Positions 26,435-45,081 of a DNA stretch of 45,372 nt are shown here, in pieces (the stretch's first letter is position 1; every line of letters starts with the position of its first letter). The position numbers and the translations under genes are program-made. Below the pieces are notes generated by a model, which had not been told where the DNA came from, did not search any database, and saw only the letters and a list, made by a program, of their open reading frames with translations. Source of the stretch: Ruminiclostridium sp. (GTDB taxonomy: Bacteria; Bacillota; Clostridia; Oscillospirales; Ruminococcaceae). The stretch is taken from positions 1 through 45,372 of the forward strand of contig JAEEJW010000199.1 in assembly GCA_016282095.1 (NCBI GenBank), in the 5' to 3' direction.

Positions 26435-27283
26435 TTGAACGAAGTGATATTATCGACTGCATATCAGCCGATCGTATGTGCCTGTGACTTTCTGGCGGCT
26501 TATGAGCCGTTCTATCATCTTGACCGTGTGCTTGAATTCAACGATCTTCTTTATGTTGTGGAGGGGACGATGTACGTTTCGGAGGACGGCACGGATTATG
26601 ATATCAACGAGGGCGAAATGCTTTTCCTCAAGCACCACATAAGACACTACGGCGTAAAGGAGACTCAGCGCGGTACGAAGTGGTACTACGCACACTTTTA
26701 TCTTGAGGAACCTGACGGAGATATACCGCGCTTTGAACCGAATTCCGCTCCGCTTGTGCTCAATCAGCCGCTGAAATATTACGAGCCTCTCCCGAAGAAA
26801 CTCACCGGACTGAAAGGCGGGTATATCGAAAGCAGATTTGCCGAGCTTGTGGATTACTGCCGCACGGGCGACGAACTGAAACGAATGCGGATAAACAGTA
26901 TGTTTTACCAGTTCCTTGCGGATATAGCTCTTGCTAAATATATGGAGAAAAACGACTACTCACTGTCTTGCCGCATCCGCTCATGGCTTGAAAAGCACTA
27001 TGCCGAGCCGTTCAACGCGGATAAACTCGAAAAGGAGTTCTATCTGAGCTACAAGCGCATGGCGGCTGTATTCAAGCAGGAGCAGGGCGTTACGATGCAG
27101 CAGTATCATACGGAACACCGTATGCAGGCTGCGGCCTTCCTGCTGCGGTCTACGCTGCTCCCGATCGGGGATATAGCGAACAGGCTCGGCTTTGAGGACA
27201 GACTGTATTTCAGCAGGTGCTTCCACGCTTTCAGCGGTACGTCGCCGAAAGAATACCGGCATTCGGCAAAAACGGATTATTAA
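26435..27283 (+). CDS. AraC-family transcription regulator
   Basis: A 282-residue regulator, probable sensor of arabinose or arabino-oligosaccharide. The N-terminal cupin domain (about 10-160; LYVVEGTMYVSEDGTDYDINEGEMLFLKHH) binds the ligand. Two helix-turn-helix motifs form the C-terminal AraC domain (about 185-280; FYLSYKRMAAVFKQEQGV and IGDIANRLGFEDRLYFSRCFHAFSGTSPKEYR). The TTG start at 26435 is supported by GGAGG six bases upstream; the next in-frame ATG would cut away part of the cupin domain. It sits between the two catabolic arms, and 33-bp tandem sites occur at both arm promoters. Activation of both arms and repression of itself is the expected pattern. Confidence 0.94.
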   Translation: MNEVILSTAYQPIVCACDFLAAYEPFYHLDRVLEFNDLLYVVEGTMYVSEDGTDYDINEGEMLFLKHHIRHYGVKETQRGTKWYYAHFYLEEPDGDIPRFEPNSAPLVLNQPLKYYEPLPKKLTGLKGGYIESRFAELVDYCRTGDELKRMRINSMFYQFLADIALAKYMEKNDYSLSCRIRSWLEKHYAEPFNADKLEKEFYLSYKRMAAVFKQEQGVTMQQYHTEHRMQAAAFLLRSTLLPIGDIANRLGFEDRLYFSRCFHAFSGTSPKEYRHSAKTDY

Positions 27284-27512: not shown

Positions 27513-29123
27513 ATGAAAAATGAAATTATCAGGAGATCTGCTGCCCTTCTGGCAGTTGTACTTACAATTTCCGGCTGCGGCGTACAACCTGTATCGTCCG
27601 GGACCGAACAGACTCAGATACAGACGGAGGCTCCCACGGTGGAAAGAGATTATGATTTTACCGTAAATTTCGACAGCGTAAAGAAAGGCAATGTATCTGC
27701 AGGGCCGTCAGTTCATGATCCTTCCGTGCTGAAAGCGGACGGTAAATATTACATCTACGGTTCCCATATGTCCTGCGCATCATGCGACGACCTGAAGACA
27801 TGGCGGTTCGTGGCTGACGGATACCGCGCAAGCAACACAGTATACGGACAGATATATGATGTATATGATGAGGCCTTTGCCTATGCGGGCAGCCCTAAGA
27901 GCATCATTCCTACCGACAACGCGAAACAGGGCGGCGAGCACGTCTGGGCTCCCGATGTGATATACAACAAGTCAATGGGCAAGTATGTGATGTACTACTG
28001 CACATCTTCGACTTGGAATGCTTCGAATCTGTGCTACGGCATATCCGACAGCCCCGAAGGTCCCTTCGAGTGGCAGGGCGCACTGATATATTCGGGTTAT
28101 GACCGCGAGACCATAAAGGCCACCGATGTACTTGAATATGTCGATGAAGACTATGCAGAAGAGAACTACTTCAAGGGAAGAGAGTACAATTTCGACAGCT
28201 TCCCGAATGCTATCGACCCCGCCGTATTCTATGACGCGGACGGCAGGATGTGGATGGTGTACGGCTCATGGAGCGGCGGCATCTTCCTGCTGGAGCTCGA
28301 TGAAAAGACCGGAAAGGTGATACACCCGGCTGCCGACCCGGAAAACAGCGTTGACCCGTACTACGGAAAAAGGCTTTTCGGCGGCGGACATATGTCCATA
28401 GAAGGCCCGTATATACTTTATGACAAGGAAAGCGGATATTACTATCTGTTTGTTTCCTACGGCGGCCTCAATCGTGACGGCGGCTATCAGATACGCGTTT
28501 ACCGCAGCGACAGACCCGACGGAGAATATATCGATATGAACGGAAAAAACGCGGCAAAGGGCCTGAACCACGCGTATTTCGGTCTTAAACTCTCCGGCAA
28601 TTATATGCTGCCGAGCCTCTCTAAAGCGTATAAGGCTACCGGACACAACTCGGCACTCATCGACGATGACGGACGAAAATACATCGTTTATCATACACGC
28701 TTCGACGACGGCACAGAGAGACACTCGCCGAGAGTTCATCAGTTCCTTGTGAATGAAGAAGGCTGGCCGTGTATGCTGCCGTATCAGACCCAGGGAGAGA
28801 AAGTCTCCGCGACGGGCTACACGATGCAGGAGACCGCAGGCCGCTACTACTTTATAAATCAGGGAACGAAGATCGACAGCAAAGTAGCGCAGCCGGAGAT
28901 ACTCTATCTGAACGATGATGGCACAGCCGCGACCGAAAAGTCCTCCGGAACATGGACTATGCACGAGGGTACATATTATATGACCGTTACTCTCGGTGAA
29001 AAGACATACAGCGGAGTATTCTGCAAGATGCCCGATGAGGCGGGGACTCCCGTGATGACATTCTCTGCTGTCGGATATGATGAGAGCGTATGGGGTGTTA
29101 AATACCTTGAAAGTGCAGAATAA
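27513..29123 (+). CDS. GH43 endo-arabinanase-type lipoprotein
   Basis: A 536-residue surface lipoprotein enzyme that should cut alpha-1,5-L-arabinan. The lipobox is ISGC (lipidated Cys22). The five-bladed propeller carries Asp69 (VHDPSV, base), Asp235 (NAIDPAVF) and Glu297 (SIEGPYI, acid). GHNSAL with YIVYHTRF marks the arabinanase-type GH43 and its metal-site His. The C-terminal 90 residues (from about 445) are an extra beta domain as in the longer Bacillus arabinanase Abn2. Its position as first gene, ahead of the importers, fits cutting polymer at the cell surface to feed the transporters. GGAGG precedes the start. Confidence 0.92.
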   Translation: MKNEIIRRSAALLAVVLTISGCGVQPVSSGTEQTQIQTEAPTVERDYDFTVNFDSVKKGNVSAGPSVHDPSVLKADGKYYIYGSHMSCASCDDLKTWRFVADGYRASNTVYGQIYDVYDEAFAYAGSPKSIIPTDNAKQGGEHVWAPDVIYNKSMGKYVMYYCTSSTWNASNLCYGISDSPEGPFEWQGALIYSGYDRETIKATDVLEYVDEDYAEENYFKGREYNFDSFPNAIDPAVFYDADGRMWMVYGSWSGGIFLLELDEKTGKVIHPAADPENSVDPYYGKRLFGGGHMSIEGPYILYDKESGYYYLFVSYGGLNRDGGYQIRVYRSDRPDGEYIDMNGKNAAKGLNHAYFGLKLSGNYMLPSLSKAYKATGHNSALIDDDGRKYIVYHTRFDDGTERHSPRVHQFLVNEEGWPCMLPYQTQGEKVSATGYTMQETAGRYYFINQGTKIDSKVAQPEILYLNDDGTAATEKSSGTWTMHEGTYYMTVTLGEKTYSGVFCKMPDEAGTPVMTFSAVGYDESVWGVKYLESAE

Positions 29124-29409
29124 GAAAAAGCCGCCGCGAGAGGGATTCAGACGGCGCAAGAGCTCTTATTATGAAGGAATGACCAAAAAGCAGATAGCTG
29201 CGGATACGGCTAAAACGGCGCTCCGCTGGCTGCTGATAAGCGCGTTCCTGTTCGTGTACTGGTTTGTCATGCTGCTGCTGGTGTCGATGATACTTGTGAA
29301 CGTGTGGAAGACCAATATCACCGAGCTTATCATTTATTCCTGCATACTCGGCGGTATAAGCTCGCTTGTGTATGCTTATATGCTGGTACACAGGAAATTC
29401 TATTACTGA
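29107..29409 (+). CDS. Small two-span membrane protein of unknown function
   Basis: A protein of about 100 residues with a basic N-terminus (KKKPPREGFRRRK) and two hydrophobic segments (about 38-63 and 70-90 from the chosen start), ending in HRKFYY. I do not recognise the family. The start is uncertain: TTG 29107 has GGGGTG eight bases upstream and overlaps the GH43 gene end by 17 bases; GTG 29113 is also possible. It is followed after 32 bases by the solute-binding protein gene. It may be an assembly or accessory subunit of the importer, but nothing in the sequence proves that. Confidence 0.65.
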   Translation: MKVQNKKKPPREGFRRRKSSYYEGMTKKQIAADTAKTALRWLLISAFLFVYWFVMLLLVSMILVNVWKTNITELIIYSCILGGISSLVYAYMLVHRKFYY

Positions 29410-29441: not shown

Positions 29442-32402
29442 ATGAACGGAAAGAAATCGGCGGGACGCCTTTCAAAACTGCTGGCGGCACTGCTAATGAT
29501 CTCGTTTGCGGATATAGCTGTTCCTGCGGACGCTGTCAATGCTCCCGCGGCTTCTTCCGCGTCCTCCGGTGTTTATGACAAGCAGTTGTTAAGTGAACGG
29601 ATATCCAATAATTACAGTAAGGTAAGCGTGGGATATACGGCGAAGGAATATAACGGCGAAGATATAAGCTTCGGATATTCCGGCGGTAATTCCGGTGCGC
29701 TGACTTCCGATACAATGGGCTATACCGGTGCGGAGAGCGTTCTTGATCTTCACGCGGGAGATAAAGCCGCATTTTCTGCCGATGTGGCGGAAAAAGCACT
29801 TTACGCGGTACGCTTCGACTACATATCCTACGATGATTCCGTACTGCCCGTGGAGTTCTCAATGGCACTCGATACAGAAGGTTCGTATCCGTTCTATGAG
29901 TGCCGCAATATAAAGCTGCGTTCTGAATGGATCCCGAAGTCCGAAAAGGCCTTCGACAGATACAACGATGAGGTTGTCACCGTTCCGGATAAAGCAGTGA
30001 AATGGCAGAGCGCGTATTTCACCGACAGCAGCGGCCGCCGTTCTGCGCCTCTGCTCATAGAGATGCCTGCCGGTCAGCATACCCTTTATTTCGAGGTAAA
30101 GAGCGGAAGCTTCCTGCTCGGCAGAGTGAGCCTTGCTGCCCCGGAAAGCATACCGGGATACAGCGGTGCCAGAACCGCCGACGGCAGTGAGCTCATAATG
30201 ATCGAGGGTGAGGATTATATCTGCTCCAACGAATCCTCGATACACGCTGTCGCGGAATTCGATGCGGGAGTTTCGCCCTACAAGGTGACCGATTCCGAGC
30301 TGAACTCCATAGATCCCGCTTCTTTCGATACTGCGGGTCAGTCGCTTACATACAGATTCAATGCCGCGGCTGCGGGATACTATTATATAGCGATGAATTA
30401 CAGTCAGGCCGACAAGACGGATTTCCCGGTTTTTATTGACGTGCGTATTGACGATAAAATACCCGATACCGCTTTTTCGGCGTGTGAAATGGCATATTCC
30501 ACAAATTACAGGATAAGTACGCTGTCCGATCATGACGGAAAAAAGCTCCCGGTTTATCTTGAACCCGGCGAGCACACGATCTCCTGCACTATAACACTCG
30601 ACCCTATATGCAATATCCTTGAATCCGTTGAGGAGATCATGGCGGGCGTAAACGACCTTGCCCTCGAAATAACAAAGGTGGCGGGAACAAACTCCGACAA
30701 GTACAGAGACCTGTCCCTCTCCCGCTATATACCTGATCTTGACACCAAACTGAGAGCCTACGCAGATGAGCTCACGGAGCTTGAAGCAGGCGCAAGACGT
30801 TTCACGGGCGGCAGCAACGTGGCTGTGATGTCCTCGATGCTGATCGCCGCGAACCAGCTCCGTTCACTGGCGGACAATCCCGACGAGATACCCTACCGCA
30901 TAGGCGAGCTTTCGTCAAGCACTAATTCGGTCAACCAGTATCTTGCCAATACGATAGACTCTCTGCTGAAAAACGGTCTTGCGATTGACCGTATATGGCT
31001 GTATCAGGAGGGCGCAAAGCTACCCGAGCCTCCCGGATTCTTTGAGGTGATATGGAAAGCGATAGAACGTTTCGTAGCGTCGTTCTTCGATCAGTCCTAC
31101 TCCGCTTCCAACATCGACCCGGAACACGTTCAGGTGTGGGTCAACCGTTCGAGTCAGTATGTGCAGGTCATGCAGAAGATGATCGACGAGTACTTCACTC
31201 CCGGTACCGGCATAGATGTGGATATAAGCATAATGCCGGACCAGTACAAACTGGTGCTTGCCAATTCATCGGGCAATGCTCCCGATGTGGCGACGGGAAT
31301 AAACTACACCATACCGTACGAACTCGCGATACGCGGAGCGCTGGCGGATATGGCGAAATACCCCGATTTTCAGAAGACTGCCTCGGTATATGAGCCCGGC
31401 TTCTTCCTGACCGGAACTATCGGTGAGTCGGTATATTCGATGCCGGAAACAATGAATTTCTGGGTGCTGGTGTACCGTTCCGATGTTCTCGAAAAGCTGG
31501 GGCTTTCTGTACCGGATACAATGCAGGACGTCATAGATATGCTGCCCGAACTTCAGATGCGCGGACTCAACTTCTACTATCCTACTGCCGGAATGAGAGC
31601 GATGCGCAACTTCCACGGCACCACACCTCTCATCGTACAGAGCGGCGGTGCGCTGTACTCGGGACTTGCGCAGGACGGCACAACGCTCGGCAGCGAGGCT
31701 TCTGTCAAGGGTTTCACAACGCTTACCGACCTGTTCACCGTATATGATATGCCGGTGGATATCGACAACTTCTATCAGCATTTCCGCAACGGCGACATAC
31801 CGATAGGGATCTGCGACTACGGTTCATACAATCTTATAAGCAACGCGGCTCCCGAGCTGGCCGGCTCATGGAACATAGCGATAGTCCCCGGTCTCGAACA
31901 GCCTGACGGCAGCATATCCCGCAACACCTGCGGCTGTGCGGAATCGACTGTCATATTCAGGAGCAGCGAAGAACGTGAAGCAAAGGCATGGGAATTCATA
32001 AAGTGGTGGTCTTCGACTCCGGTTCAGTCGGAGTTCGGTCAGACCATGCAGATCACCTACGGCGATGAATACCTGTGGACCACCGCAAATGTCGAGGCAT
32101 TTGAAAGACTGCCTCTTGACAGCTCCCACAAGAAAGTTATACTTGAATTTGCGAAGAACGTCATAGATGTGGCCCGCGTTCCCGGAACATATATGCTGGA
32201 ACGTGAGATAAGCAACGCTTTCAACTCCGTGGTCGTTGACGGCAAGAGCGCCCAGACCCGCATTGACGAGGCGGTGAAGGTGATAGACCGCGAAATGAAG
32301 CGCAAGCTGGAAGAATTCGGCTACATAGACAGTGAAGGGAATACGCTGATCGAATACCGTATCCCCGATATCAACAGTATCATGCCGATACTCGGAAGAT
32401 AA
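29442..32402 (+). CDS. Very large extracellular solute-binding protein (ABC importer 1)
   Basis: A 986-residue exported protein, more than twice the usual size for sugar-binding proteins. An N-terminal signal peptide (about 1-34) lacks a lipobox Cys. Residues 40-500 hold two beta-rich, carbohydrate-module-like regions (around [14 protein letters not shown]...DKAAFSADV and [15 protein letters not shown]) plus a helical linker. The MalE-like binding domain spans about 560-960 ([53 protein letters not shown]). I chose ATG 29442 because GGAGG precedes it and a signal peptide starts there. It lies directly ahead of MalF/MalG genes. How it stays at the cell surface is unclear. The added modules may bind arabinan chains. 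Confidence 0.88.
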
Positions 32403-32419
32403 CAAGGAGGTGCTTGTTA

Positions 32420-33433
32420 ATGGAAGCACAGGCGAATACCGCGCAGACCGCGGCAATGCCGGCAAAAAAACGCAGAAAAAACAAGATCTCCCGGCGTGAG
32501 AACAACTGGCGCGGCTGGCTGTTCATAGGGCCTTATGCGCTCATCTTTTCGGTATTCATTCTTGTTCCTGTAGTTCTTGCTGTAATACTTTCATTCACCA
32601 ATTTCAACGCTATCCAGTTCCCGAAGTTCGTAGGGTTCCTCAACTATATAACTATCCTTACGAACGATGCGGAGTTTATGAAATATGTCCTCCCGAATAC
32701 CATCATTTATGCTGTTGTTGTAGGTATCGGAGGTTATATTCTTTCCTTCATTCTCGCATGGGCTTTGTGTAATCTTACAAAGCCCGTGCGGACCGTTTTT
32801 GCGCTGATTCTCTACTCTCCGAGTATGACAACCGGCGTAGCTATGACGGTACTGTGGAAGGTTATCTTTTCCGGCGATCAGGCAGGTCTCCTCAACAGCT
32901 GGCTCATGGAGCTGGGAGTTATCACGGAACCGATACTCTGGCTCACGGATGCGAGATACCTGCTTCCGATAGTAATAATCATAGGACTCTGGTCTTCAAT
33001 GGGTATAGGCTTCCTGAGCATGATAGCGGGTATTCTGAATACCGACGCGTCGCTGTATGAAGCCGCCTCCATCGACGGCATTACCAATCGTTTTCAGGAA
33101 ATGATCTACATAACCATACCGCAGATGAAGCCGCAGATGCTCTTCGCGGCGGTAATGGCGATAGTGGGTGCGTTCCAGAACGGTATGATAAGCTCTATGC
33201 TTGTAGGCAACCCCTCTCCGGGCTATGCCTCCCAGCTCCTCGTTAACCACATCGAGGACTACGGCTTCCTGCGCTACGAAATGGGCTATGCTGCGGCTAT
33301 ATCGGTAGTGCTTCTGCTTATAGTACAGCTTTTCAGCAAAGGCGCAAATGCACTTCTCACCGAAAAGGATCCTTACGGAAAGGCAAAATCGAAGCCCGTA
33401 AAGGTACAGACCGAAGGGAAGGTGATAAAATGA
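32420..33433 (+). CDS. Sugar ABC transporter permease 1, MalF type
   Basis: A 337-residue inner-membrane subunit with six predicted spans after a basic N-terminus ([14 protein letters not shown]). The EAA loop that docks the ATPase reads [15 protein letters not shown]...TIPQMKP. The first span begins at [14 protein letters not shown], typical of the MalF/UgpA group. AAGGAGGTG precedes ATG 32420. The stop overlaps the next start by four bases (ATGA), so the two permeases are made in step. Confidence 0.94.
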
Positions 33434-34293
33434 AAGGCAGAAAAATAAACCCCAAACGCTTTGAGATAGGGCAGCTGAAGATAATTCTCCTCATACTCCC
33501 GCTCGTTATATTCATGGGTATGCCGATCATCTTTATCCTGAACCACGCGTTCAAGCCCATGGAAGAACTGTTCGCTTTCCCGCCCACGTTCTTCGTGAAG
33601 AACGCAACTCTTGAAAACTTTTCAAAGCTGATAAAATTCTCTGACAGCAGCGGCATACCGCTGAGCAGGTATCTCTTCAACAGCCTGATCGTCACGGCAG
33701 TGACTGTCGGACTTGCGCTGCTTCTCACTACGATGTCCGCGTTTGCCCTTGCGAAGATAAAGTTCAAGGGACGCAATATGCTTGCGAAGATCAATCAGGT
33801 AGCTATCATGTTCGTGAGCACGGCTGTGCTGATACCGAGATATCTGGTTATCTGCAAGCTGGGGCTTATCGACAATCTGCTCGCGCATATCCTCCCGCTG
33901 GTGGCTATGCCCGTGGCGCTGTTCCTTGTGAAGCAGTTCGTCGAACAGGTGCCGGACTCGCTGCTTGAAGCGGCGTATATGGACGGCGCGACCGACCTCG
34001 ATATATATCTGAAAGTCATCATGCCCATGATAAGACCGGCAGTGGCGACTGCCGCCATACTTGTGTTCCAGCAGGTATGGACGAACATGGAGACATCGAG
34101 CTACTTCTTCAGTGATGACAGCATGAAAACGCTGACATTTTACATGAACACACTTGTAAACGCGAACAATACCGTTGCCGGACAGGGTATGGCGGCTGCG
34201 GCTTCACTGATAATGTTCCTGCCTAACCTTATCCTGTTTATAATTTTACAGAACAAGGTAATGAACACAATGGCAAACTCCGGCATCAAGTAG
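33430..34293 (+). CDS. Sugar ABC transporter permease 1, MalG type
   Basis: A 287-residue inner-membrane subunit with six spans, partner of the preceding permease. The EAA loop is [24 protein letters not shown]. It has the usual MalG features: the [13 protein letters not shown] first periplasmic loop and a C-terminus ending shortly after the last span. No separate ATPase gene follows here, so the MsmX-type protein at the window end probably energises it. Confidence 0.94.
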
Positions 34294-34309
34294 AATTGGG
34301 GGAAAGAGT

Positions 34310-36358
34310 ATGCAAAAGCTGAAACGCCTTGCAGCGGCGCTGCTGACAGCGGTACTGATATGTATAACGCTGTCGGTCTCCGCGTATGCCGATACCCCTT
34401 ATGTCACATACACGATCAATGGCTACGGTCAGATACGTCAGACCCAGACCGCATATCTCGCTCACGCGACCATAACAAAATTCGGCGAGGCTTCACTCGC
34501 TTCTCCGAGCGATATATGCCTTGCCGATGACGGACTTATCTATATCGCGGATTCAGGAAACAAAAGAATAGTAGTGGGAAATGCCGAGGGTGAGCTTGTA
34601 CGGACTGTCGGCGAAGGTACGCTGAAAAATCCCCGCGGCGTATTCGTAACGGCTGACGGCAGCATATATGTGGCAGACCGTGACGCGGGAAAGATATTCA
34701 TTTTCGGCAGCGACGGGCAGCTTACCGGAGAATACGGGAAGCCCGCAAGTCCGCTGTACGGCGATGAGGTCAGCTTCCTTCCGATAAAGATAGTCGTGAA
34801 CAACGCCGGCATAATGTTTGCAGTGTGTGAATCCAACACAAACGGTATCGTTGAGATATCTCCCACCGATGGCGGTACCTTTCTCGGCTATTTCGGAACC
34901 AATTACGCTGCAACGAACCTTACTACGATAATTTACCGCATGATACTCACCGACGAGCAGAGAGCCAAAATGGTGAGCAATATACCGGCGACTCCTACCA
35001 ACCTGACCATCGACGAAAAGGGACTCATCTATACCGTTACGCGCGGTAACAGGAACGACACCTTAAAGCGCCTGAATATCGCCGGCACGAACATGATACA
35101 CAATACCGACGGCACTTATGCCGATACCCCGACATCCGTGGCTGCCGGCAATCATGATAACGTATATGTAGCGGACCAGCAGGGCTACATTTTCGAGTAC
35201 AATAACGAAGGTGAGATGATCTTCGTTTTCGGAGGCCCCGACGACGGTACTCAGCGTGTAGGCCTCTCCACAATGGTCAGCGGTATCGCGGTTGACAGTA
35301 ATGACCGCATCTATGTTCTCGATTCGGACAAGGCACAGGTACAGGTCTATCAGCCTACCGAATTCACCAATCTTCTGCATAGCGCGCTGTACCTTTATTC
35401 AAAGGGCCGCTATACCGAAGCGAAGGAACCGCTCACTTCGATACTGAAGATGAACTCCATGTTCGACTACGCCAACAAGGCTATGGGTCGCTGCTATTTC
35501 CGTGAGGAGAATTACGGCGAGGCCATGCGCTACGCCAGACTTGCGAAGGATTATTCCGGCTACTCGGACGCGTACTGGGAAATACGCAATGTATGGCTGA
35601 AAAATAACATAATCACCGTTATTCTGGTGATCGCAGCAATATTTGTTGTAATTAAGATCATAAAGGTACTTGACAAGAAGAAACAGATACTCGGCAGGCC
35701 GAGGGCCTTCGCCGGAAAGCTGCGCGAAAACCGGTTTGCTGACAACTTCTGCTACGCCTTCAGATTTATGAAGAAACCCGCGGATACCGCTTACGGTATT
35801 GCCGCCGAGGGCAGGGAAGGCTGGCTCATGCCGTCGCTCATGCTGCTGATATTCATGATAGAATTCATCATAAGCAAATATACCTGCGGTTTTCTGATGA
35901 AGACAGTCATGGACGGCAGATACGAAATACTCAGCGATATCGGCGCGATAATCGCCGTGGTAGCCGCAGTAACCGCCTGCACCTATCTCGTATGCACGAT
36001 CAATGAGGGTGAAGGCACGGTAAAGAAGATATACACGGCGATCTGCTACAGCCTTACGCCGTATATCATATTCATGCCGCTGAATTATGTGCTGTCGCAC
36101 GTTCTTACAAACAATGAGATATTCCTGACCACGATGCTGTCGGTACTGACTTACGGCTGGATCGCCGTGATCGCGTTCGTGGGACTTAAGGAGGTCAACA
36201 ACTTTACCGTAGGACAAACTGTGAAGGTGATACTTCTGACGCTGTTCGCGGCGCTCATACTCGCGCTTCTGATATTTATAATCTATGTTCTCTGGGCACA
36301 GGTGTTCGGTTTTATCGGAGCGCTGGTCGGTGAGGGGGTGTACAGACTTGGATACTAA
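34310..36358 (+). CDS. NHL-repeat / TPR / Yip1-domain membrane protein
   Basis: A 682-residue membrane protein of unknown biochemical role. The signal peptide spans about 1-28. Six or so NHL beta-propeller repeats follow (about 55-345; SPSDICLADDGLIYIADSGN and NPRGVFVTADGSIYVADRD are clear), then two TPR-like helices (about 350-425), a membrane span (about 430-450), and a Yip1-type domain with about five spans (about 510-680). The propeller would face outside, possibly binding glycan or an importer component. A Yip1 domain linked to NHL repeats between two importer cassettes is unusual. The gene overlaps the next by 11 bases and follows the MalG gene by 16 bases. Confidence 0.85.
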   Translation: MQKLKRLAAALLTAVLICITLSVSAYADTPYVTYTINGYGQIRQTQTAYLAHATITKFGEASLASPSDICLADDGLIYIADSGNKRIVVGNAEGELVRTVGEGTLKNPRGVFVTADGSIYVADRDAGKIFIFGSDGQLTGEYGKPASPLYGDEVSFLPIKIVVNNAGIMFAVCESNTNGIVEISPTDGGTFLGYFGTNYAATNLTTIIYRMILTDEQRAKMVSNIPATPTNLTIDEKGLIYTVTRGNRNDTLKRLNIAGTNMIHNTDGTYADTPTSVAAGNHDNVYVADQQGYIFEYNNEGEMIFVFGGPDDGTQRVGLSTMVSGIAVDSNDRIYVLDSDKAQVQVYQPTEFTNLLHSALYLYSKGRYTEAKEPLTSILKMNSMFDYANKAMGRCYFREENYGEAMRYARLAKDYSGYSDAYWEIRNVWLKNNIITVILVIAAIFVVIKIIKVLDKKKQILGRPRAFAGKLRENRFADNFCYAFRFMKKPADTAYGIAAEGREGWLMPSLMLLIFMIEFIISKYTCGFLMKTVMDGRYEILSDIGAIIAVVAAVTACTYLVCTINEGEGTVKKIYTAICYSLTPYIIFMPLNYVLSHVLTNNEIFLTTMLSVLTYGWIAVIAFVGLKEVNNFTVGQTVKVILLTLFAALILALLIFIIYVLWAQVFGFIGALVGEGVYRLGY

Positions 36359-38612
36359 AAAGCCGAACCGGCTCCTCATCGTTATCATCATCGCGGCTGT
36401 ACTGCTGATCGCGGGTGTCGCTGCGGCGATCGTGATCATCATGGGCGCGGAGACTGATGTGGTAAAGGGCACACATTCACACTCGGCACCCGAGCCTGTG
36501 ACCGGCGCTAAGGTCGAAGCGAAAGACGGCTTTGTACAGGTCGCGGAAAGCGATACATACAGGCTGTATTATTACGAACCGCAGTTCTCCATACGGCTTG
36601 AGAACAAAAAGACCGGTGCGGTGCTCGATTCCACCGTCAGTGACGAGAAGGACGACGGAAAGAACAACGCCAGCTGGACGGCGTATATGAAGAGCGGCAT
36701 CGTGATAAATGCCATAATTGGTACACTCAACACCTATCAGGTGGATATGAACACTGTGAAGAACGAAATCTCCACATGGTACATTGATAACGGCATCTAC
36801 GCGAAGATACACTTCAAGGGAAATTATTATTTTGAACTCGGTGTTGAGGTAAAGCTCGAGGGCGATGACCTGATCGTGCGCATACCCGACGAGTCCATTA
36901 AGGAAAACAAAGAAAATACCTACATCAGCACAGTCAGCCTGTTCCCGTTCCTCGGCTACACATATCTTGACGAGCAGAACGGCTATATGCTTGTGCCTGA
37001 CGGAAACGGCGCGCTCATTTACCTTGATAACAAGGAAGGCCGCTATACCACAGGCTTCTCCGGGCTGATCTACGGCATAGACGACGGAATGACCAACCAT
37101 ACTTCCGTATCTACGATATGGGAGCATTACGAGACAGTCACAGAAGCAAACAAGGTGATCGCACCCGTGTTCGGAATGACGCATCTTGACGATAAGCTCG
37201 GCTATCTCGGTATAGTTGAGTCCGGTGACGAAAGGTGCAGCGTTGAGGTCGTCCCGAACGGTGTTATGGTAGACTACAACCGCTGTTTCGCGAAATTCCT
37301 GCTGCGCGACGTTTATGTGCAGCCCCTCAATCAGTCCAATTCCGGCACAGTTCCCGCAGTTGAGAAGGACAGACAGCATTCCGATCTTACCGTAAGATAT
37401 TGTCTCCTTTCGGACGATGCCGCAAACTATTCCGGAATGGCGAACGCATACCGCAGATATCTGCTCGACAGCGGAAAGCTGGTACAGCGTGATACGGGCT
37501 ACAGAACCCGTGTTGATTTCCTCGGTACCGAACGAGAAGCGTTCCTTATGGGAACGACTGCGGTGACCATGACAACAACAGGTCAGGCATCGGATATACT
37601 CGCTGAACTCCGCGGCCTCGGCGTGAACAATGTACTGTCGGTATTCAAGGGCTGGCAGAACGGCGGACTTTATGATGTTCCGGTCAGCTCCTTCGGCGCA
37701 GACGGCAGCATCGGCGGAAACTCCGGAATAAAGAACTTCGTAAAGACGCAGGCTGATCTTGGCAGCAAGGTCTATCTCTATGACGATGCTCTTATGGTCA
37801 ACGCGGACACTCATTCTACCACCTACAACGTTATGAAAATGGTGAACAAGCGTACATTCAAAAACGAGACTCACGGACAGGTATATGATATGTTCTATTA
37901 TCTGATGCCCGGACGCAGCCTGACAGACCTTGCTCACCTTACCAAAGACCTGAACGGTGCAGGCATCGGAAATATAGCGCTCTCGGGCATCACGGAAACG
38001 CTGTTCTCCTACAGCTCGAAAGGCAATTTCTACTCCCGCACCGACACAATGGATATTTACGAAGACGCAGTCAGCGCGGCAGGGGAGATGTGCGGAGTCG
38101 TAACGGAGACACCGAACGCTTTCCTTTGGAAATACTCGGAAGCTATGCTGGATATGCCGCTGAGTTCATCTGATTATCTGTATCTCGACCGTGAGATACC
38201 GTTCCTTTCAATGGTGTTCAAGGGCATAGTTCCGACATATTCCGAATATGTGAATTTTGAGGCAAACAAGCAGGAAAACTTCCTGCGTATGGTGGAAGCG
38301 GGCGTTTACCCGTCTTTCTACATCACGGCGGAAGATTCCTCAAAACTCATCTACACGAATTCGAGCGATCTGTATTCACTCGAATACGCATCGTACCGTG
38401 ACACGATCGCTGAATATGACAGCGCACTCAGGGCTGTCGCCGAGAAGGTCGGCACTGCCTGCATAACTAAACACGAGATACTTGACAGCGGGCTTGTAAA
38501 AGTGACCTACGACAACGGCGTCACGATATATGTAAACTATACCGGATCCGCGCAAAGCGACGGCGATCTGACCGTGGACGCGCTTTCCTATACCGTAAAG
38601 GCAGGTGAGTGA
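36348..38612 (+). CDS. DUF5696-family extracellular protein
   Basis: A 754-residue membrane-anchored protein with one N-terminal span (about 8-34) and a large outside part. Length, the N-terminal beta region, and the later barrel-like segments (LRGLGVNNVLSVFKGWQNGG, AQADLGSKVYLYDD-type strands, PGRSLTDLAHLTKDLNGAGI) fit DUF5696, a family of unassigned activity that recurs beside MalFG-type importers in Clostridia and Paenibacillus-like bacteria. The repeating strand-helix pattern suggests a TIM-barrel glycosidase fold, with Asp residues in strand ends as candidate catalysts (inference). The TTG at 36348 is chosen for the GAGGGGG site eight bases upstream; it overlaps the previous stop. Confidence 0.82.
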   Translation: MDTKKPNRLLIVIIIAAVLLIAGVAAAIVIIMGAETDVVKGTHSHSAPEPVTGAKVEAKDGFVQVAESDTYRLYYYEPQFSIRLENKKTGAVLDSTVSDEKDDGKNNASWTAYMKSGIVINAIIGTLNTYQVDMNTVKNEISTWYIDNGIYAKIHFKGNYYFELGVEVKLEGDDLIVRIPDESIKENKENTYISTVSLFPFLGYTYLDEQNGYMLVPDGNGALIYLDNKEGRYTTGFSGLIYGIDDGMTNHTSVSTIWEHYETVTEANKVIAPVFGMTHLDDKLGYLGIVESGDERCSVEVVPNGVMVDYNRCFAKFLLRDVYVQPLNQSNSGTVPAVEKDRQHSDLTVRYCLLSDDAANYSGMANAYRRYLLDSGKLVQRDTGYRTRVDFLGTEREAFLMGTTAVTMTTTGQASDILAELRGLGVNNVLSVFKGWQNGGLYDVPVSSFGADGSIGGNSGIKNFVKTQADLGSKVYLYDDALMVNADTHSTTYNVMKMVNKRTFKNETHGQVYDMFYYLMPGRSLTDLAHLTKDLNGAGIGNIALSGITETLFSYSSKGNFYSRTDTMDIYEDAVSAAGEMCGVVTETPNAFLWKYSEAMLDMPLSSSDYLYLDREIPFLSMVFKGIVPTYSEYVNFEANKQENFLRMVEAGVYPSFYITAEDSSKLIYTNSSDLYSLEYASYRDTIAEYDSALRAVAEKVGTACITKHEILDSGLVKVTYDNGVTIYVNYTGSAQSDGDLTVDALSYTVKAGE

Positions 38613-38614
38613 CC

Positions 38615-39700
38615 ATGGCTGAAATGACAAAAAAAATGACCCGTAAGGAAAAGAAAGAGCTCAGGGAACGGATGAAGCATCTGAAGTCCGGCAAGCTCGA
38701 AAAGCGCTACGCGAGAATGGGCTACATCTTCATGATACCGTGGTTCATAGGGGCGGCTGTATTTCTCGCCTATCCTCTCGGAAGCTCGTTCTGGTACGCT
38801 CTGAACAATATCCGCATCACACCCCTCGGAAGGATATTCAACTTCGTGGGTCACGGAAACTTCACGCAGATACTCATTGAAGATCCGGACTTTATGATCT
38901 ACCTTGTGGATTATCTTACTTCTACAGTGATATCGGTTCCTATCATCGTCGTGTTTGCCCTTCTCATTGCGATGATGCTGAATATGAAGATAAAGGGCAA
39001 GGGCTTTTTCCGGCTTATATTCTTCCTTCCGGTAATAATCGTGAGCGGTCCGATACTCGGTATGCTCAACTCACAGGGCGCCGGAAGCGTTTCCGCGATC
39101 GACACGGCGGCGCTCTCGGGTGCGATAGGTTCGGTGCTTCCGGAACTGATTGCAAAGCCTATATCCGATGTGTTCGGAAATATGATAACGACTCTCTGGT
39201 ATTCGGGCGTGCAGATACTCATATTCCTGTCGGGCCTCCAGAAGATCGACAAATCAATGTATGAGGCGGCCAAGATCGACGGCGGCTCGGGCTGGGAATG
39301 CTTCTGGAAGATAACGCTTCCGAACCTCAGATCCATGATACTGCTGAACACGATATACACCGTGGTGTTCGTCTCGAATAACAGCGACAATCCCATAATC
39401 GTGCTCATAAAGAACTCCATGTTCTCGGGTACGAAGGAAAAGGGTTACGGCTACGCGTCGGCTATGGCATGGCTGTATTCGATAGTGGTGCTGATACTTG
39501 TGGGACTGTTCGCGCTCCTTCTCGCGACACGCAAGGATCAGTACGAAAAGCAGGTCAAGCGCGCGATAAAGGCGAGAAAGAAGGAAAAACGGAACAAGAA
39601 GAGGATAGAAAGGAGGAACCGCAGAAATGCCAAGAGGATCGAGCAGCAGCGTGCAAAAGGCAGGATCACCTCGCACACCACGAAGCGCGACGACTACTAA
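38615..39700 (+). CDS. Sugar ABC transporter permease 2, MalF type
   Basis: A 361-residue inner-membrane subunit. A charged N-terminus (MTRKEKKELRERMKHLK) leads into six spans. The EAA loop is EAAKIDGGSGWECFWKITLPNLRS. The C-terminal tail is long and very basic (about 310-361, rich in Lys and Arg, e.g. KARKKEKRNKKRIERRNRRN), which is not usual for this family. That tail overlaps the next gene for 74 bases. AGGTGAG precedes the ATG at 38615. It is clearly different in sequence from permease 1, so this is a second importer rather than a recent duplicate. Confidence 0.93.
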   Translation: MAEMTKKMTRKEKKELRERMKHLKSGKLEKRYARMGYIFMIPWFIGAAVFLAYPLGSSFWYALNNIRITPLGRIFNFVGHGNFTQILIEDPDFMIYLVDYLTSTVISVPIIVVFALLIAMMLNMKIKGKGFFRLIFFLPVIIVSGPILGMLNSQGAGSVSAIDTAALSGAIGSVLPELIAKPISDVFGNMITTLWYSGVQILIFLSGLQKIDKSMYEAAKIDGGSGWECFWKITLPNLRSMILLNTIYTVVFVSNNSDNPIIVLIKNSMFSGTKEKGYGYASAMAWLYSIVVLILVGLFALLLATRKDQYEKQVKRAIKARKKEKRNKKRIERRNRRNAKRIEQQRAKGRITSHTTKRDDY

Positions 39701-40649
39701 GTCATGGCGTGAGCGGTTCACCAGGGAGAAGATACACCGCTTCATGTTCGGCACGAAGGACAGAGAAGGTTTCCTTAAACAGTTCGCTGTCTATGCGCTG
39801 CTTATATGTATCGGTTTCATCTATGTCTATCCGATACTTCACATGGTATCGAGCAGTCTTATGACGCTTGACGATCTGCTTGATTCGTCTATAAAGTGGC
39901 TGCCGAGCTCGCTGAATTTCGCGAACTATGAACAGGCGGCAAAGAGCATGGATTTCTGGAACGCCCTGTGGCAGAGTATAGTGATAGCCGGTGTTCCGAC
40001 GATATGCAACCTGGTTTCCTGCTCCGTAACAGGCTACGCTCTCGCAAGGTTCGACTTCAGGGGCAAGAAGATAGTCATGGGTATAATCATACTCAGCTTC
40101 GTGCTTCCGAGTCAGATAACCATGATACCGACTTACGTCCTTTACTCGAATCTCGGCATACTGAACACGATATGGGCGTTCATACTTCCGGCTATGTTCG
40201 CGCAGGGATTCAAGGCACCGATATTCATACTCATCTTCTGGCAGTTCTTCCGGCAGATCCCGAAAGCGCTGATAGAAGCATCAAGAATAGACGGCGCGGG
40301 ACATTTCAGATCATTCTTCCGGATAGCGCTCCCCAGCGCAAAGCCCGCGTTTATCACGGTCGCGCTGTTCTCGTTCGTGTGGTACTGGAACGAATCATAC
40401 CTCACGGAGCTGTATGTTCACGGAGTTTACGGCAAATCCGACTGGACAACGCTGGTCGTTCAGCTTGACAACTTCGCGGCTAACTTTTCAAGTTACCAGC
40501 AGACGGCTACGGCAGGAGCCACGAATCTCAACGAGTCTATAAATATGTCGGGAACACTTCTCAGCATACTGCCTCTGATGATACTCTATTTTGTGCTTCA
40601 GAGACATTTTGTCGAAAGCATAGACAGAACCGGTATAACCGGCGAATAA
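39627..40649 (+). CDS. Sugar ABC transporter permease 2, MalG type
   Basis: A 340-residue inner-membrane subunit with six spans and EAA loop EASRIDGAGHFRSFFRIALPSAKP. The N-terminus carries about 45 Ser/Arg/Lys-rich residues before the first span, longer than usual. The ATG at 39627 has AGGAGG ten bases upstream, which supports the long start despite the 74-base overlap with the previous gene. A start at the later Met39 (MFGTKDREG) would give a more typical length but lacks a good site. Confidence 0.92.
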   Translation: MPRGSSSSVQKAGSPRTPRSATTTKSWRERFTREKIHRFMFGTKDREGFLKQFAVYALLICIGFIYVYPILHMVSSSLMTLDDLLDSSIKWLPSSLNFANYEQAAKSMDFWNALWQSIVIAGVPTICNLVSCSVTGYALARFDFRGKKIVMGIIILSFVLPSQITMIPTYVLYSNLGILNTIWAFILPAMFAQGFKAPIFILIFWQFFRQIPKALIEASRIDGAGHFRSFFRIALPSAKPAFITVALFSFVWYWNESYLTELYVHGVYGKSDWTTLVVQLDNFAANFSSYQQTATAGATNLNESINMSGTLLSILPLMILYFVLQRHFVESIDRTGITGE

Positions 40650-40659
40650 CAAGCACCTG

Positions 40660-40679
40660 TACAGGCAAAGGCGCCTGTA
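40660..40679 (+). promoter_or_regulatory. Hairpin between permease 2 and solute-binding lipoprotein genes
   Basis: TACAGGC (40660-40666), loop AAAGGC, GCCTGTA (40673-40679). There is no U-run. Such intercistronic stems often stabilise the downstream part of importer mRNAs and allow more binding protein than permease to be made. Confidence 0.45.
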
Positions 40680-40714
40680 TCGATAACAAACCAACAACAA
40701 AAACGGAGGAACCT

Positions 40715-42346
40715 ATGAAGAAAAGAATACTTTCAATCTTACTTGCAGGCTGTATGGCAGCCGGAGTTCTCGCGGGCTGCGGAAACGGAGGCAACCCGGG
40801 AACAACTGCAGCGCCTTCCGGCGGTGAGGCCGGAGGTAACACCGGGAGCACAGGCCCCGCGACTTCCGTAACGAACGATTTCGAACTCGTTACCGTTGAC
40901 GGAAGCTCTCATCAGTACAAGAAGTACAAGGATATGACGAGCGAGAACATCACGCTCACATACTTCCACTTCGATCAGGATGAGACCGTTCAGCTCCTTG
41001 CGGAAAGATTCATGAAGATCTATCCGAACATCACGGTAAATGTACAGTATGAGAATGTGGCAAATTACAATACCACGCTTTCCACTCTCGTAAGCAACGG
41101 TCAGGCACCTGACGTTATCATGCATTCCGACTGCGACTACGCGCTCTCGAATATGCTTCTTGCGGACATCTCCTCTTTCTTCAATACGGACGATGAGACC
41201 AAGAACCTTGCCGACACGATCAACTCCGCGGGTCTCGGCACCTACAATCTTGAGGGCGGCATGAGATACAGCGTACCCGTGAAGTTCTTCCCCGGCGCTA
41301 TGTTCGTTGACCGCAACGTTCTCGAAACGCTGAACCTGAAAGTTCCGACACAGAACTGGACATGGAGCGAGATGACACAGCTCATCAAGGACGCTACCGT
41401 GCTCAACTCTCCCGACGGTATGGCTTACTACGGACTCGGTTACTATAACCGCCTCGATTCCTACTACGGCATTGCCGCAAGACAGGATATCATCGGTGAG
41501 TTCGGATTCAACGGCAAGGTATTCGATCTGACCGAATGGGCAGTAGGCGAGCAGGAATTCTCGAACCTGAAGCTCGGCGGCTACATAGCTCCCACTACCG
41601 AGACACAGGCTATGGAAGACTGGTGTGGCGACTGGGAAGGCTGGGCAGGCAACACCGGCCACGCGGCACTCTTCTCCGAAGCATTCTGGACATTCCAGAA
41701 CACATGGAACACTCCCGGCTATAAGGACAGCTACAACCTCGACGTAGTTCCTTACGTTATCCCCGCTGTTTCCGAGGCAGATGCCGGTGCAAACCACCAT
41801 TCGATAGCTACAATTGACTACGGCGGGATCACCACTTCCTGCCAGCATCCGCGTGAAGCTTATGAGCTTCTCAAGTTCATGTCTTATGGTGTTGACGGCT
41901 GGTACACACGCTGCGAGATCTACTCCGATGAGACCATCGTGAACGCTATGGGTACAGCCCTCAAGTATGATGTAATGCCTGTTCCGATCACAAAGGACGA
42001 GGGCGTCTGGGACGAGTACATCAAGGTTTACTGCGCAGGCATGGACGATGAGCACACACAGCTCTGGAGAGATTACTTCAAGTCCTGCATGCAGCCTATC
42101 TCCTTCGGCTGGACCAGCATAGCAGGCTACTGGAACTTCTGCGACCAGTACTTCAACTCTATCGGCATCCATGACCTGGTTGACAACGGTACCGCACAGG
42201 CTGCCGATTATGTAGAGGAAGCAAACCGCAAGGCAAACTACTTCCACGCACAGGCGATGCTTGACTACTTCGGACCCGGTGCATATAATGTACTGACCGA
42301 ATCCGAGATAGCGGAGTATGAAAAGATGAAGGCTGACAATCAGTAA
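40715..42346 (+). CDS. Sugar solute-binding lipoprotein (ABC importer 2)
   Basis: A 543-residue lipoprotein. The signal ends in the lipobox LAGC (lipidated Cys22), followed by a Gly/Thr/Ser-rich linker. The MalE-like two-lobed binding fold is seen in ENITLTYFHFDQDETVQLLAERFMKIYPNI-type N-terminal strand and helix, PDVIMHSDCDYALSN, and the hinge segments around YSVPVKFFPGAMFVDRNVLE. Many Trp and Tyr residues in the middle (NWTWSEM, WCGDWEGWAG, FWTFQNTW) suit stacking on sugars. AACGGAGG precedes the start. It is slightly longer than typical (400-450 residues). It is the partner of permease pair 2 and probably imports arabino-oligosaccharides. Confidence 0.93.
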   Translation: MKKRILSILLAGCMAAGVLAGCGNGGNPGTTAAPSGGEAGGNTGSTGPATSVTNDFELVTVDGSSHQYKKYKDMTSENITLTYFHFDQDETVQLLAERFMKIYPNITVNVQYENVANYNTTLSTLVSNGQAPDVIMHSDCDYALSNMLLADISSFFNTDDETKNLADTINSAGLGTYNLEGGMRYSVPVKFFPGAMFVDRNVLETLNLKVPTQNWTWSEMTQLIKDATVLNSPDGMAYYGLGYYNRLDSYYGIAARQDIIGEFGFNGKVFDLTEWAVGEQEFSNLKLGGYIAPTTETQAMEDWCGDWEGWAGNTGHAALFSEAFWTFQNTWNTPGYKDSYNLDVVPYVIPAVSEADAGANHHSIATIDYGGITTSCQHPREAYELLKFMSYGVDGWYTRCEIYSDETIVNAMGTALKYDVMPVPITKDEGVWDEYIKVYCAGMDDEHTQLWRDYFKSCMQPISFGWTSIAGYWNFCDQYFNSIGIHDLVDNGTAQAADYVEEANRKANYFHAQAMLDYFGPGAYNVLTESEIAEYEKMKADNQ

Positions 42347-42403: not shown

Positions 42404-43990
42404 ATGAAGAAGAAGTTATCATTCACTCTTGCACTTGCCATGGTACTGTCTCTGGCAGCCTGCGGCAACAACGGCGGAAGCACCGCTGCAACAACTACAG
42501 CAGCAGCTACCACGGCCGCTCCGGCCGAAACCACCACAACAGAGAAACCCGCTGAGACCACAACGACTACAGAAGCTACCACCGAAGCAGCTCCCGCTCC
42601 CGTTGAGGCAGAGCCTATCACAGCTGAGCCGCTTGTATATCTCGGATTCGAGAACACTGACGGACTTACGGCAGTTGAGCAGGTAGAAGACAAGGGCTCA
42701 CTCACAGGCGCTAACTTCGGTCTTGCCGCTTCCGCTCATCCGATACTCATTGCAGAAGGTCAGGGCGCAGTCGGCAACGCTCTCTATCTCGACGGCAAAT
42801 ACGGTGTTGACTTCGAAATGAAGGAAACAGACGAAAGCTATACATTCTCCTTCTGGTACAACGCAGACCGCGTTTCCACATACGGTCCCGTTGTTCAGAT
42901 AGGCCGCAATATAGGTATGTCCAATGCCGACGCTACCGTTACATGGCTCAACATCACAAAGTCCACATGGGGCTCCAACAGCGCGGATATCTTCCCGGTA
43001 GGCTGGAACCGCAACTCTTCTATCGGCACCGAAGTAAGCGCTGACGGTGTATGGCCGTGGATCTACGCTATGGACGATCAGGAGCACGGCAAGCGTGAGT
43101 GGTGCAACCTCACTATCGTAGCAGACGGCAACCGCTATGTTGCAGATGACGGCATGGAGCGCGTAGGCACCAAGTTCTACCTCAACGGCGAACTCAAGTG
43201 GGAAGCAAATGCCGAGAATATGTATTATCAGGGTCTTGCTCCCGAGATACTCACAGGTGACGGCATCGAAGGTCACATCGGTATCAACTACTGGGATACG
43301 ATCTTCAAGGGCTTTATCGATGAGCTCTACATCTATGACGAAGCACTCACAGACGGACAGGTAAAGACACTCTTCGAGCAGGGCAATCCTCCTGAGAAGC
43401 CCGTTGCTCCCGAAGCAGGCGCAGTTGAAGAACCCGAGCCCGAGCCGGTAGTTCTCGCACCCATCACACCCGACGCTTCTGCTGTAGCAACACTCGGTAA
43501 TACCGAAAGAGCTCTTGGTTTCTGGACAGACCACACCGACGGTTATGAGCTCAAGGACGGTTCTTCTGTCAAGCTCACAGTCAACAACTATTCCGACGGT
43601 ATCAACAACTGGGATAACTTCTTCCTCGCATTCACAAACACAGCAGTCAAGGCCGATACAATACCGAGCGCCGACAACTACGAAGGATATGCAGAGTACG
43701 CTGTTCTCCGCGCTGACGCTTACGGCTGGGGTGATGCTTCCTACAACGCTTCTTTCGATACTTCCTGGACAGACTTTGCAGGCTGGCTCGCAAGAATGAC
43801 CTGCGCAACCGCTGAGATCGTCTGCACACGCAACGGCGGCGAAGTTACTGTCGATATCACATTCCACTTCGCAGATTCCGGCGTTGAGACCGAAAAGGTT
43901 GTATTCACATCCACAATGACTGCCGATTCTCCCGTATTCGTACACATCGGCGGCGAGGGCGCTTACATCGAGCTCCTCAGCGTGGAATAA
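42404..43990 (+). CDS. LamG-like carbohydrate-binding surface lipoprotein
   Basis: A 528-residue lipoprotein with lipobox LAAC (Cys20), a long Thr/Ala/Glu-rich linker (about 25-72), a LamG / concanavalin-type jelly-roll domain (about 75-325; VYLGFENTDG, NALYLDGKYGVDFEM, YTFSFWYNAD, GFIDELYIYDEALTDGQV), a Pro/Glu linker (about 330-360) and a second beta domain (about 365-528; LGFWTDHTDGYELKDG, FHFADSGVETEKVVFTS) that may be another binding module. No catalytic motif is visible. It probably holds arabinan at the cell wall for the GH43 lipoprotein and importers. It is in the same transcript as the binding protein, 57 bases away. Confidence 0.87.
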   Translation: MKKKLSFTLALAMVLSLAACGNNGGSTAATTTAAATTAAPAETTTTEKPAETTTTTEATTEAAPAPVEAEPITAEPLVYLGFENTDGLTAVEQVEDKGSLTGANFGLAASAHPILIAEGQGAVGNALYLDGKYGVDFEMKETDESYTFSFWYNADRVSTYGPVVQIGRNIGMSNADATVTWLNITKSTWGSNSADIFPVGWNRNSSIGTEVSADGVWPWIYAMDDQEHGKREWCNLTIVADGNRYVADDGMERVGTKFYLNGELKWEANAENMYYQGLAPEILTGDGIEGHIGINYWDTIFKGFIDELYIYDEALTDGQVKTLFEQGNPPEKPVAPEAGAVEEPEPEPVVLAPITPDASAVATLGNTERALGFWTDHTDGYELKDGSSVKLTVNNYSDGINNWDNFFLAFTNTAVKADTIPSADNYEGYAEYAVLRADAYGWGDASYNASFDTSWTDFAGWLARMTCATAEIVCTRNGGEVTVDITFHFADSGVETEKVVFTSTMTADSPVFVHIGGEGAYIELLSVE

Positions 43991-44029: not shown

Positions 44030-44117
44030 GGAAGGTGCGGGGAGCTTTTCCCCCACCTTTCCGAAGACGGTGAACCCCGCCGTTTTCGGAAAGGTGAGCC
44101 TTTCCGGAAATGAAAGG
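44030..44117 (+). promoter_or_regulatory. Ladder of mutually exclusive hairpins before the second GH43 gene
   Basis: Five segments in series can pair alternately: A GGAAGGTG (44030-44037), B CACCTTTCC (44054-44062), C GGAAAGGTG (44088-44096), D CCTTTCC (44099-44105), E GAAAGG (44112-44117). A:B is a closed hairpin. B:C extends to a 17-bp stem (44054-44070 with 44080-44096) with one G-U pair. C:D is 7 bp with a 4-base loop. D:E would hide the ribosome-binding site of the GH43 gene. No U-run follows. Confidence 0.55.
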
Positions 44118-44127
44118 AACGTCACGA

Positions 44128-45081
44128 ATGACCGAAGACCTGATATACAACAAACCCTGGATAATGCAGCGCGCCGATCCCTATGTGCTGAGGCATACGG
44201 ACGGTAAATACTACTTCACCGCCTCGGTTCCGGCGTATGACCGCATAGTACTGCGCTGTTCCGATACGCTCGGCGGCCTCGCGGAAGCGGAGGAAAAGAC
44301 ACTCTGGCACTGCCATGAGAGCGGTCCCATGAGCAGGCATATCTGGGCGCCGGAGCTGCATCACATCTTCGGCAAGTGGCATATATACTTCGCAGGCGGT
44401 GAAAAGGATGATCCCTGGAAGATACGCCCCTATGTCCTTGAGTGCAGCGGTGACGATCCGATGACCGGCGAGTGGACGGAGCTTGGAATGATGCGGTGCA
44501 GAGAGGACGACGAGTTCTCTTTCAGAGCGTTCTCGCTGGACGGAACGGTGTTTGAGAACGGTGGAGCGCATTACTACGTCTGGGCAGAGAAGGTGGGCGT
44601 CGGAAAGCAGATATCCAATCTCTACATAGCACGGATGAAGGATGCAAACACCCTTGACACCGTGCAGGTGATGCTGACGACACCGGACTATGACTGGGAG
44701 AGACACGGTTTCTGGGTAAACGAAGGCCCTGCCGTGATAAAGCGCGGAGGCAGGATATTCCTTACATATTCCGCCAGCGACACGGGCGCCGCGTACTGCA
44801 TGGGAATGCTCACAGCAGATGAGAACAGTGATCTTCTCGATCCGCGGAGCTGGAGCAAGGAGCGCCGTCCGGTGCTCAGCACAGACGCGGAAAAGGGAAT
44901 TTACGGCCCGGGACATAATTCCTTTACCGTTGACGCGGAGGGTAATGATATCCTCGTTTTCCACGCGAGAACGGAGTCTGAGATCACGGGCGATCCGCTC
45001 TACAACCCGAACCGTCACGCTATGCTGATGCCGGTGCGCTGGGAAAACGGAAGGCCGGTATTCGGCTTCGACAATATATGA
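44128..45081 (+). CDS. Intracellular GH43 exo-alpha-L-arabinofuranosidase-type enzyme
   Basis: A 317-residue cytoplasmic five-bladed propeller glycosidase without signal peptide. Catalytic residues: Asp17 (QRADPYV, base), Asp138 (SLDGTVF) and Glu199 (VNEGPAV, acid); GHNSFTV is the metal-site His motif. The short length and RADPYV start resemble exo-acting alpha-1,5-arabinofuranosidases such as those of the GH43_26 type, but beta-xylosidase activity cannot be excluded by eye. I chose ATG 44128 for the AAAGGAAC site, giving a protein that begins just before the first blade. It probably degrades imported arabino-oligosaccharides. Confidence 0.9.

Follow-up and report, generated by a model that had tools for sequence, protein, structure and literature searches.

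Conserved double-importer module of Firmicutes with NHL-Yip1 and DUF5696 proteins: a candidate system for glycan capture and import

Introduction

The capture of glycans at the cell surface is much less clear in Gram-positive bacteria of the gut and soil than in the Bacteroidota, where it is carried out by the SusCD systems of polysaccharide utilization loci (PULs). Among the closest known systems are the CUT1 carbohydrate ABC importers, which combine MalF/MalG-type permeases and SBP_bac sugar-binding proteins with a shared MsmK/MsmX ATPase. We analyzed a whole contig of Ruminiclostridium sp. (JAEEJW010000199.1; 45,372 bases, referred to below as the window), in which a run of genes encodes an oversized binding protein (SBPbig), a first permease pair (MalF1 and MalG1, or F1 and G1), a protein composed of an NHL propeller, a TPR region and a Yip1 domain (NHL-Yip1), a DUF5696 protein and a second permease pair (F2 and G2); a lipoprotein binding protein (SBP2) follows. 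We put at about even the chance that the seven genes from SBPbig to G2 encode a single membrane-bound machine for glycan capture and import, handling arabinan fragments in this organism.

The module resembles the CUT1 importers in its permeases, its SBP_bac proteins and the MsmK-like gene found near some of the loci, and differs from them by its two permease pairs, its two membrane-tethered outside proteins and its oversized binding protein bearing carbohydrate-binding modules (CBMs); we regard it as a new and elaborate version of the CUT1 type. With the SusCD systems it would share surface capture, adjoining glycosidases and, in some genomes, many parallel copies, whereas there is no outer membrane and import would proceed through ABC permeases; no match to the families of the TonB-dependent SusC or the lipoprotein SusD was obtained with Pfam in the module proteins. 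The module is a defined and widespread seven-gene candidate, the parts of which can be tested.

Conservation of the Module as One Unit

In a sample of 299 genomes spread evenly across the phylum (Firmicutes), DUF5696 was identified in 26 genomes, and the co-occurrence is obligate, all 26 also carrying NHL-Yip1 and SBPbig. NHL-Yip1 was found in 27 genomes, the additional one (G301) having a lone 284-residue piece on an 8.5 kb contig without the rest of the module. SBPbig matches reaching the N-terminal half were present in 28 genomes, namely the same 26 and two (G162 and G212) in which the contigs end inside MalF1; the SBPbig of G161 is cut at the contig start, and six more genomes match the sugar-binding domain only.

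NHL-Yip1 lies directly upstream of DUF5696 on the same strand in 76 of the 85 DUF5696 matches, with at least one such pair in each of the 26 genomes (ten genomes were searched in full, and the copy numbers of the others are lower bounds). Six of the nine unpaired copies start at most 2.1 kb from a contig start; of the other three, G121:C9 is rearranged, and the remaining two are G140:C266 and G140:C108. Within the genus of the window, a search of 35 other genomes detected DUF5696 in every one. Five genomes of 2.2–3.0 Mb have multiple matches (20 in G140, 11 in G099, 10 in G121, 10 in G193 and 8 in G223), which suggests that some lineages take up glycans largely through this module and fits the comparison with the Sus systems.

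Gene order was read in 139 loci annotated with profiles built from the module. The selection was non-random: it includes loci picked from relatives (L032–L051), the 79 most similar of 545 relatives (L052–L130), loci of low-copy genomes (L131–L150) and loci picked from the five multi-copy genomes (L151–L170), and the DUF5696 proteins of L104 and L105 are identical, as are those of L048 and L147. The seven genes stand in order in 106 loci (16/20 in L032–L051, 67/79 in L052–L130 and 23/40 in L131–L170), and NHL-Yip1, DUF5696, F2 and G2 are contiguous in 129 (18/20, 73/79 and 38/40, respectively), the other 10 being either cut by contig ends (8 loci) or rearranged (L045 and L165). SBPbig, F1 and G1 are located downstream of this core rather than upstream in L138 and L140; L157 has a stop inside DUF5696, and L133, which was counted as complete, has an interrupted MalG1. 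The median distances between the genes range from -8 to 17.5 bases (-8 between NHL-Yip1 and DUF5696 and -1 between DUF5696 and F2). The tightest core is NHL-Yip1-DUF5696-F2-G2, usually with a lipoprotein binding protein on one side; SBPbig-F1-G1 forms a companion importer. Among the named hosts are Ruminococcus albus, Butyrivibrio, Lachnospiraceae, Bacillus, Paenibacillus, Cohnella, Haloplasma, and Peloplasma.

The first-pass annotation of the window had taken these genes to form one unit, which is strongly supported by their order, tight packing and recurrence across the phylum; rather than occurring mostly without importers, the two inner genes adjoin MalF2-MalG2 in the 129 loci mentioned above. 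That two ordinary importers should be neighbors by mere coincidence, the genes between them being unrelated, is extremely improbable: either permease pair taken alone resembles a normal CUT1 pair, but the gene order, the co-occurrence across the phylum and the four single-group permease lineages described below contradict this idea, and a chance neighborhood was rejected on the gene-order survey.

Two Importers of Distinct Lineages

All four permeases exceed the Pfam cut-off for BPD_transp_1, and EAA loops were read in their translations (EAASIDG, EAAYMDG, EAAKIDG, and EASRIDG), the motif at which CUT1 permeases dock the ATPase. The identity amounts to 25% between MalF1 and MalF2 and to 23% between MalG1 and MalG2. 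When 127 permeases from 32 loci were placed in a quick maximum-likelihood tree, F1, G1, F2, and G2 were each found on one side of a single branch, with supports of 90 for G1, 98 for G2 and 96 for F2; the support of 4 obtained for F1 is due to one long row (L129), without which the other 31 F1 sequences reach 99. The fact that each permease forms a single group suggests that the four roles are old and have been kept distinct. Since the permease identities are low and BLAST found no significant similarity between SBPbig and SBP2, neither importer was copied from the other recently; for the permeases, this had been read from the sequence at the outset. A recent duplication of the importer was rejected on the permease tree, the identities and the binding-protein BLAST.

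An MsmK-like gene was found in 10 other loci, one of which (L053) was scanned with Pfam; the label was dropped for L038, L157, and L169, the genes of which are not MalK-like, so that the number of loci decreased from 13 to 10. A second full module is present in the window's own genome (L038, on G000:C53), and a related form of it occurs across the genus (L174–L183). ABC ATPase genes lie directly upstream of this second module in all 11 loci read, and G014 has two of them, the second with a MazE/AbrB-like end. We read these ATPases as LolD/MacB-like, and they might drive both permease pairs.

The sugar-binding families of CUT1 importers were recognized in both binding proteins (SBP_bac_8/1 in SBPbig and SBP_bac_1 in SBP2). 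SBPbig is composed of a signal helix, two CBM35-like beta-sandwich domains, a helical spacer and a maltose-binding-type domain. The predicted model shows the maltose-binding protein (MBP) fold, and the Foldseek list was filled by matches to that domain. The N-terminal domains, which were assigned from sequence profiles, are both probably CBM35-like: their best matches are cycloisomaltooligosaccharide glucanotransferase chains (5x7g and 3wnl), in a region that presumably corresponds to CBM35. The Pfam family CBM_35 was matched at E ≤ 0.01 by 9/40 rows of the second domain and 3/40 rows of the first, and by none of the window's own rows. In the glucanotransferase the CBM35 domains belong to an enzyme, whereas in SBPbig they belong to a binding protein; unlike SBPbig, the beta-1,2-glucooligosaccharide-binding protein Lin1841 (5ysb) has neither CBM35-like domains nor a helical spacer. 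A search of viral contigs gave nothing useful; SBPbig relatives with 25–28% identity are encoded by three unannotated sequences from human faeces filed as Bacteriophage sp. (MT835587.1, MT835600.1, and MT837217.1), which are possibly bacterial DNA filed as phage.

The NHL-Yip1 and DUF5696 Proteins

NHL-Yip1 was matched by the Pfam families NHL and Yip1 (PF04893, 48.6 bits vs. a cut-off of 28.6), and approximately residues 360–415 matched the profiles of consensus TPR proteins. Its hydropathy indicates a signal helix, then an extensive outside region, a helix at residues 433–451 followed by a charge of +5, and the Yip1 membrane part, while that of DUF5696 shows a single N-terminal helix, in agreement with the membrane tethering and large outside domains previously attributed to both proteins. 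In some loci NHL and Yip1 are encoded by separate adjacent genes (the match is split in 27/139 loci, and the genes are so named in Butyrivibrio), which fits a fusion of interacting parts. The RefSeq names (NHL repeat-containing, YIP1 family, and DUF5696 domain-containing proteins) say nothing more, and no NCBIfam name scored above the cut-off. No paper on DUF5696 or on the seven-gene set was found in a search outside which most subscription papers and preprints lie. The earlier statement that DUF5696 has no assigned function therefore holds as far as the literature was searched, but the protein does have a recognizable fold.

The predicted model of DUF5696 shows the GH129 fold along its whole length, with a beta-sandwich, a TIM barrel and a C-terminal beta domain, and thus ties the family to a known fold. 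It has 13–14% identity with the GH129 enzymes NagBb (alpha-N-acetylgalactosaminidase, 5wzn) and DagB (3,6-anhydro-D-galactosidase, 5opq) and, unlike them, carries a membrane helix and is non-acidic in the window at the position of the catalytic Asp. In the window's protein, no GH129 Pfam match was obtained at E ≤ 0.01, PF18952 being the only family listed; the GH129 family gave no match anywhere in 249 genomes, controls included, and is uninformative here. The catalytic Asp (Asp435 in NagBb, Asp486 in DagB) falls at residues 567–569, which are Ser-Gly-Ile in the window, as placed by a profile alignment ending at NagBb residue 426 and by counting on from there, the coordinates not being superposed. 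Since just 2 of the 53 close relatives have an acid at these residues, cutting by DUF5696 is doubtful, and this role is assigned more safely to the neighboring GH43, GH51, and GH127 enzymes. The cleft is well conserved in the same relatives (Trp457 in 53/53, Glu608 in 52/53, and Glu671 in 53/53). Of the two surface activities proposed initially, gripping is thus favored by the CBM35-like domains of SBPbig and the glycosidase-fold cleft of DUF5696, while cutting by DUF5696 is disfavored by the Ser-Gly-Ile.

Substrates Predicted from Neighboring Genes

The neighboring genes were labeled from one Pfam-scanned representative per cluster, and since the flanks are short the counts are lower bounds. 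In the window's subfamily, GH43/GH51 genes lie beside the module in 43 of 52 loci and a laminin-G-like lipoprotein in 34, and no GH10, GH26, GH106, GH35, or PF10091 clusters were found beside the module in these 52 loci. The GH51 label of the window's own enzyme is our assumption. In the other loci, GH43/GH51 was present in 10/84, GH35 together with PF10091 in 7, GH10 in 5, GH26 in 4, and GH106 in 4. PF10091 is presumably linked to GH144, and a beta-1,2-glucan substrate would fit the seven loci carrying it with GH35 (L097, L099, L100, L104, L108, L131, and one more), which lie outside the arabinan subfamily and include Bacillus and Paenibacillus. The substrate seems to follow the subfamily, and the module would therefore be a general chassis, of which arabinan is the likely cargo here. 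The arabinan suggested by the first-pass annotation is supported for the window's subfamily, although the module as such is not restricted to arabinan.

A Putative Glycan-Capture Machine

In the machine we propose, SBPbig would grip the glycan with its two CBM35-like domains and present the chain ends to its domain of maltose-binding type, from which permease pair 1 would be fed. DUF5696, anchored by its membrane helix, would keep the glycan bound in its cleft at the entrance to permease pair 2; the SBP2 lipoprotein would feed this pair. NHL-Yip1 may be the membrane scaffold tying DUF5696 and the permeases together in one assembly, the two pairs would transport jointly under the power of a shared MsmK-type ATPase, and the GH43, GH51, and GH127 enzymes would cut the glycan. 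More tentatively, the module might represent a new Gram-positive class of glycan-capture systems, a functional counterpart of SusCD having two permease pairs held by an NHL-TPR-Yip1 scaffold and fed through a DUF5696 receptor of glycosidase fold devoid of the catalytic Asp, with glycan-specific subfamilies and as many as 20 copies in one genome. The single surface machine imagined at first is partly supported: the conserved unit and the arabinan link of the subfamily speak for it, and the cutting ascribed to DUF5696 is its doubtful part.

Several points weigh against this proposal. Co-location alone does not prove that the proteins form one complex, and the case is built on sequences and predicted models. 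No MalK/MsmK-type ATPase gene is present in the window, the contig of which ends at 45372, and the ATPases upstream of the second module are not MalK-like. SBPbig-F1-G1 is missing nearby in 9/40 loci of the phylum sample, all in multi-copy genomes, and in 2/79 genome-contig loci (L114 and L127), all these loci keeping the four core genes only; the double importer is therefore not indispensable. Lastly, Glu608 is located at the end of strand 5 and is kept in all but one of the close relatives, and 38/82 other DUF5696 members have an acid at residues 567–569, so that DUF5696 may still be catalytic.

It is accordingly conceivable, if unlikely, that DUF5696 still works as a glycosidase, though with altered catalytic residues, and trims the chain at the membrane once it has been captured, the other parts acting as proposed. 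This would explain the whole-length GH129 fold, the highly conserved cleft and the acids present in other members such as those of Bacillus and Paenibacillus, and a precedent exists in DagB, a GH129-like enzyme that differs from NagBb in a catalytic residue (PMC5698469). However, the expected Asp is replaced by Ser-Gly-Ile, and 51 of the 53 close relatives have no acid there.

The four-gene form with one importer, together with the LacI, AraC, and HTH regulators found near many loci, would also suit a sensing role, in which NHL-Yip1 and DUF5696 detect glycan outside the cell and accordingly gate or regulate a pair of importers that are ordinary in other respects; propellers and TPR domains often serve in interactions. 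We consider this quite unlikely, since Pfam found no kinase, receiver or DNA-binding domain in either protein and the inner genes are locked in order with transporter genes, not with regulators. In eukaryotes the Yip1 domain serves in membrane trafficking, and this role and the tight coupling to F2-G2 might point to assembly factors for the insertion or stability of the permeases that never meet the glycan. This is very improbable, because an outside domain of 700 residues with a glycosidase fold and a conserved cleft would be hard to explain. The machine in which DUF5696 holds the glycan is the reading we retain.

Gene Layout in the Window

The eight genes named in the first-pass annotation are all present on one strand, in the order and at the coordinates then given, including the SBPbig start at 29442 (Table 1). 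The spacing of these adjacent genes ranges from a 74-base overlap to a 65-base gap. The small membrane protein adjoining SBPbig upstream matched no Pfam family and has relatives in 15 fetched loci (E < 1e-9); it may be an eighth part of the module in gut members. The first-pass annotation named neither this protein nor the GH43 enzyme downstream at 44110..45081.

Table 1. Features of the module and its surroundings in the window.
Feature	Position	Strand	Evidence or remark
GH51-type alpha-L-arabinofuranosidase	22808..24271	-	Alpha-L-AF_C E 5.8e-46
GH127 beta-L-arabinofuranosidase family protein	24309..26213	-	PF07944 E 3.1e-101
AraC-type regulator	26435..27283	+	HTH_18, AraC_binding
Promoter-like site before GH43 lipoprotein	27425-27454		Promoter scan
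GH43 lipoprotein with GH43_C domain	27513..29123	+	Pfam
Small two-helix membrane protein	29179..29409, open from 29077	+	Relatives and hydropathy
SBPbig, 986 amino acids	29442..32402	+	ATG preceded by GGAGG
MalF-type permease 1 (F1)	32414..33433	+	BPD_transp_1; own permease-tree group
MalG-type permease 1 (G1)	33430..34293	+	BPD_transp_1; own permease-tree group
NHL propeller, TPR, membrane helix, Yip1 protein	34310..36358	+	Pfam NHL and Yip1, TPR profile match, hydropathy
DUF5696 protein, N-terminal membrane helix, GH129-like fold outside	36330..38612, alternative start 36285	+	Pfam E 5e-172
MalF-type permease 2 (F2)	38609..39700	+	BPD_transp_1; own permease-tree group
MalG-type permease 2 (G2)	39627..40649	+	BPD_transp_1; own permease-tree group
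SBP2 lipoprotein, lipobox LAGC	40715..42346	+	SBP_bac_1 E 1.5e-15
Laminin-G-like lipoprotein	42404..43990	+	Laminin_G_3 28.3 bits; adjoins 34/52 close-relative loci
GH43 enzyme without signal	44110..45081	+	PF04616 E 5.4e-59

Further upstream, the window encodes an FGGY sugar kinase (8848-10371, minus strand), which is possibly part of pentose use, and a 2003-residue protein with List-Bact (Flg_new), MBG, and YDG repeats (14143-20154), which is probably a surface protein. A large serine recombinase (Resolvase, Recombinase, and DUF4368) is encoded at 841-2520.

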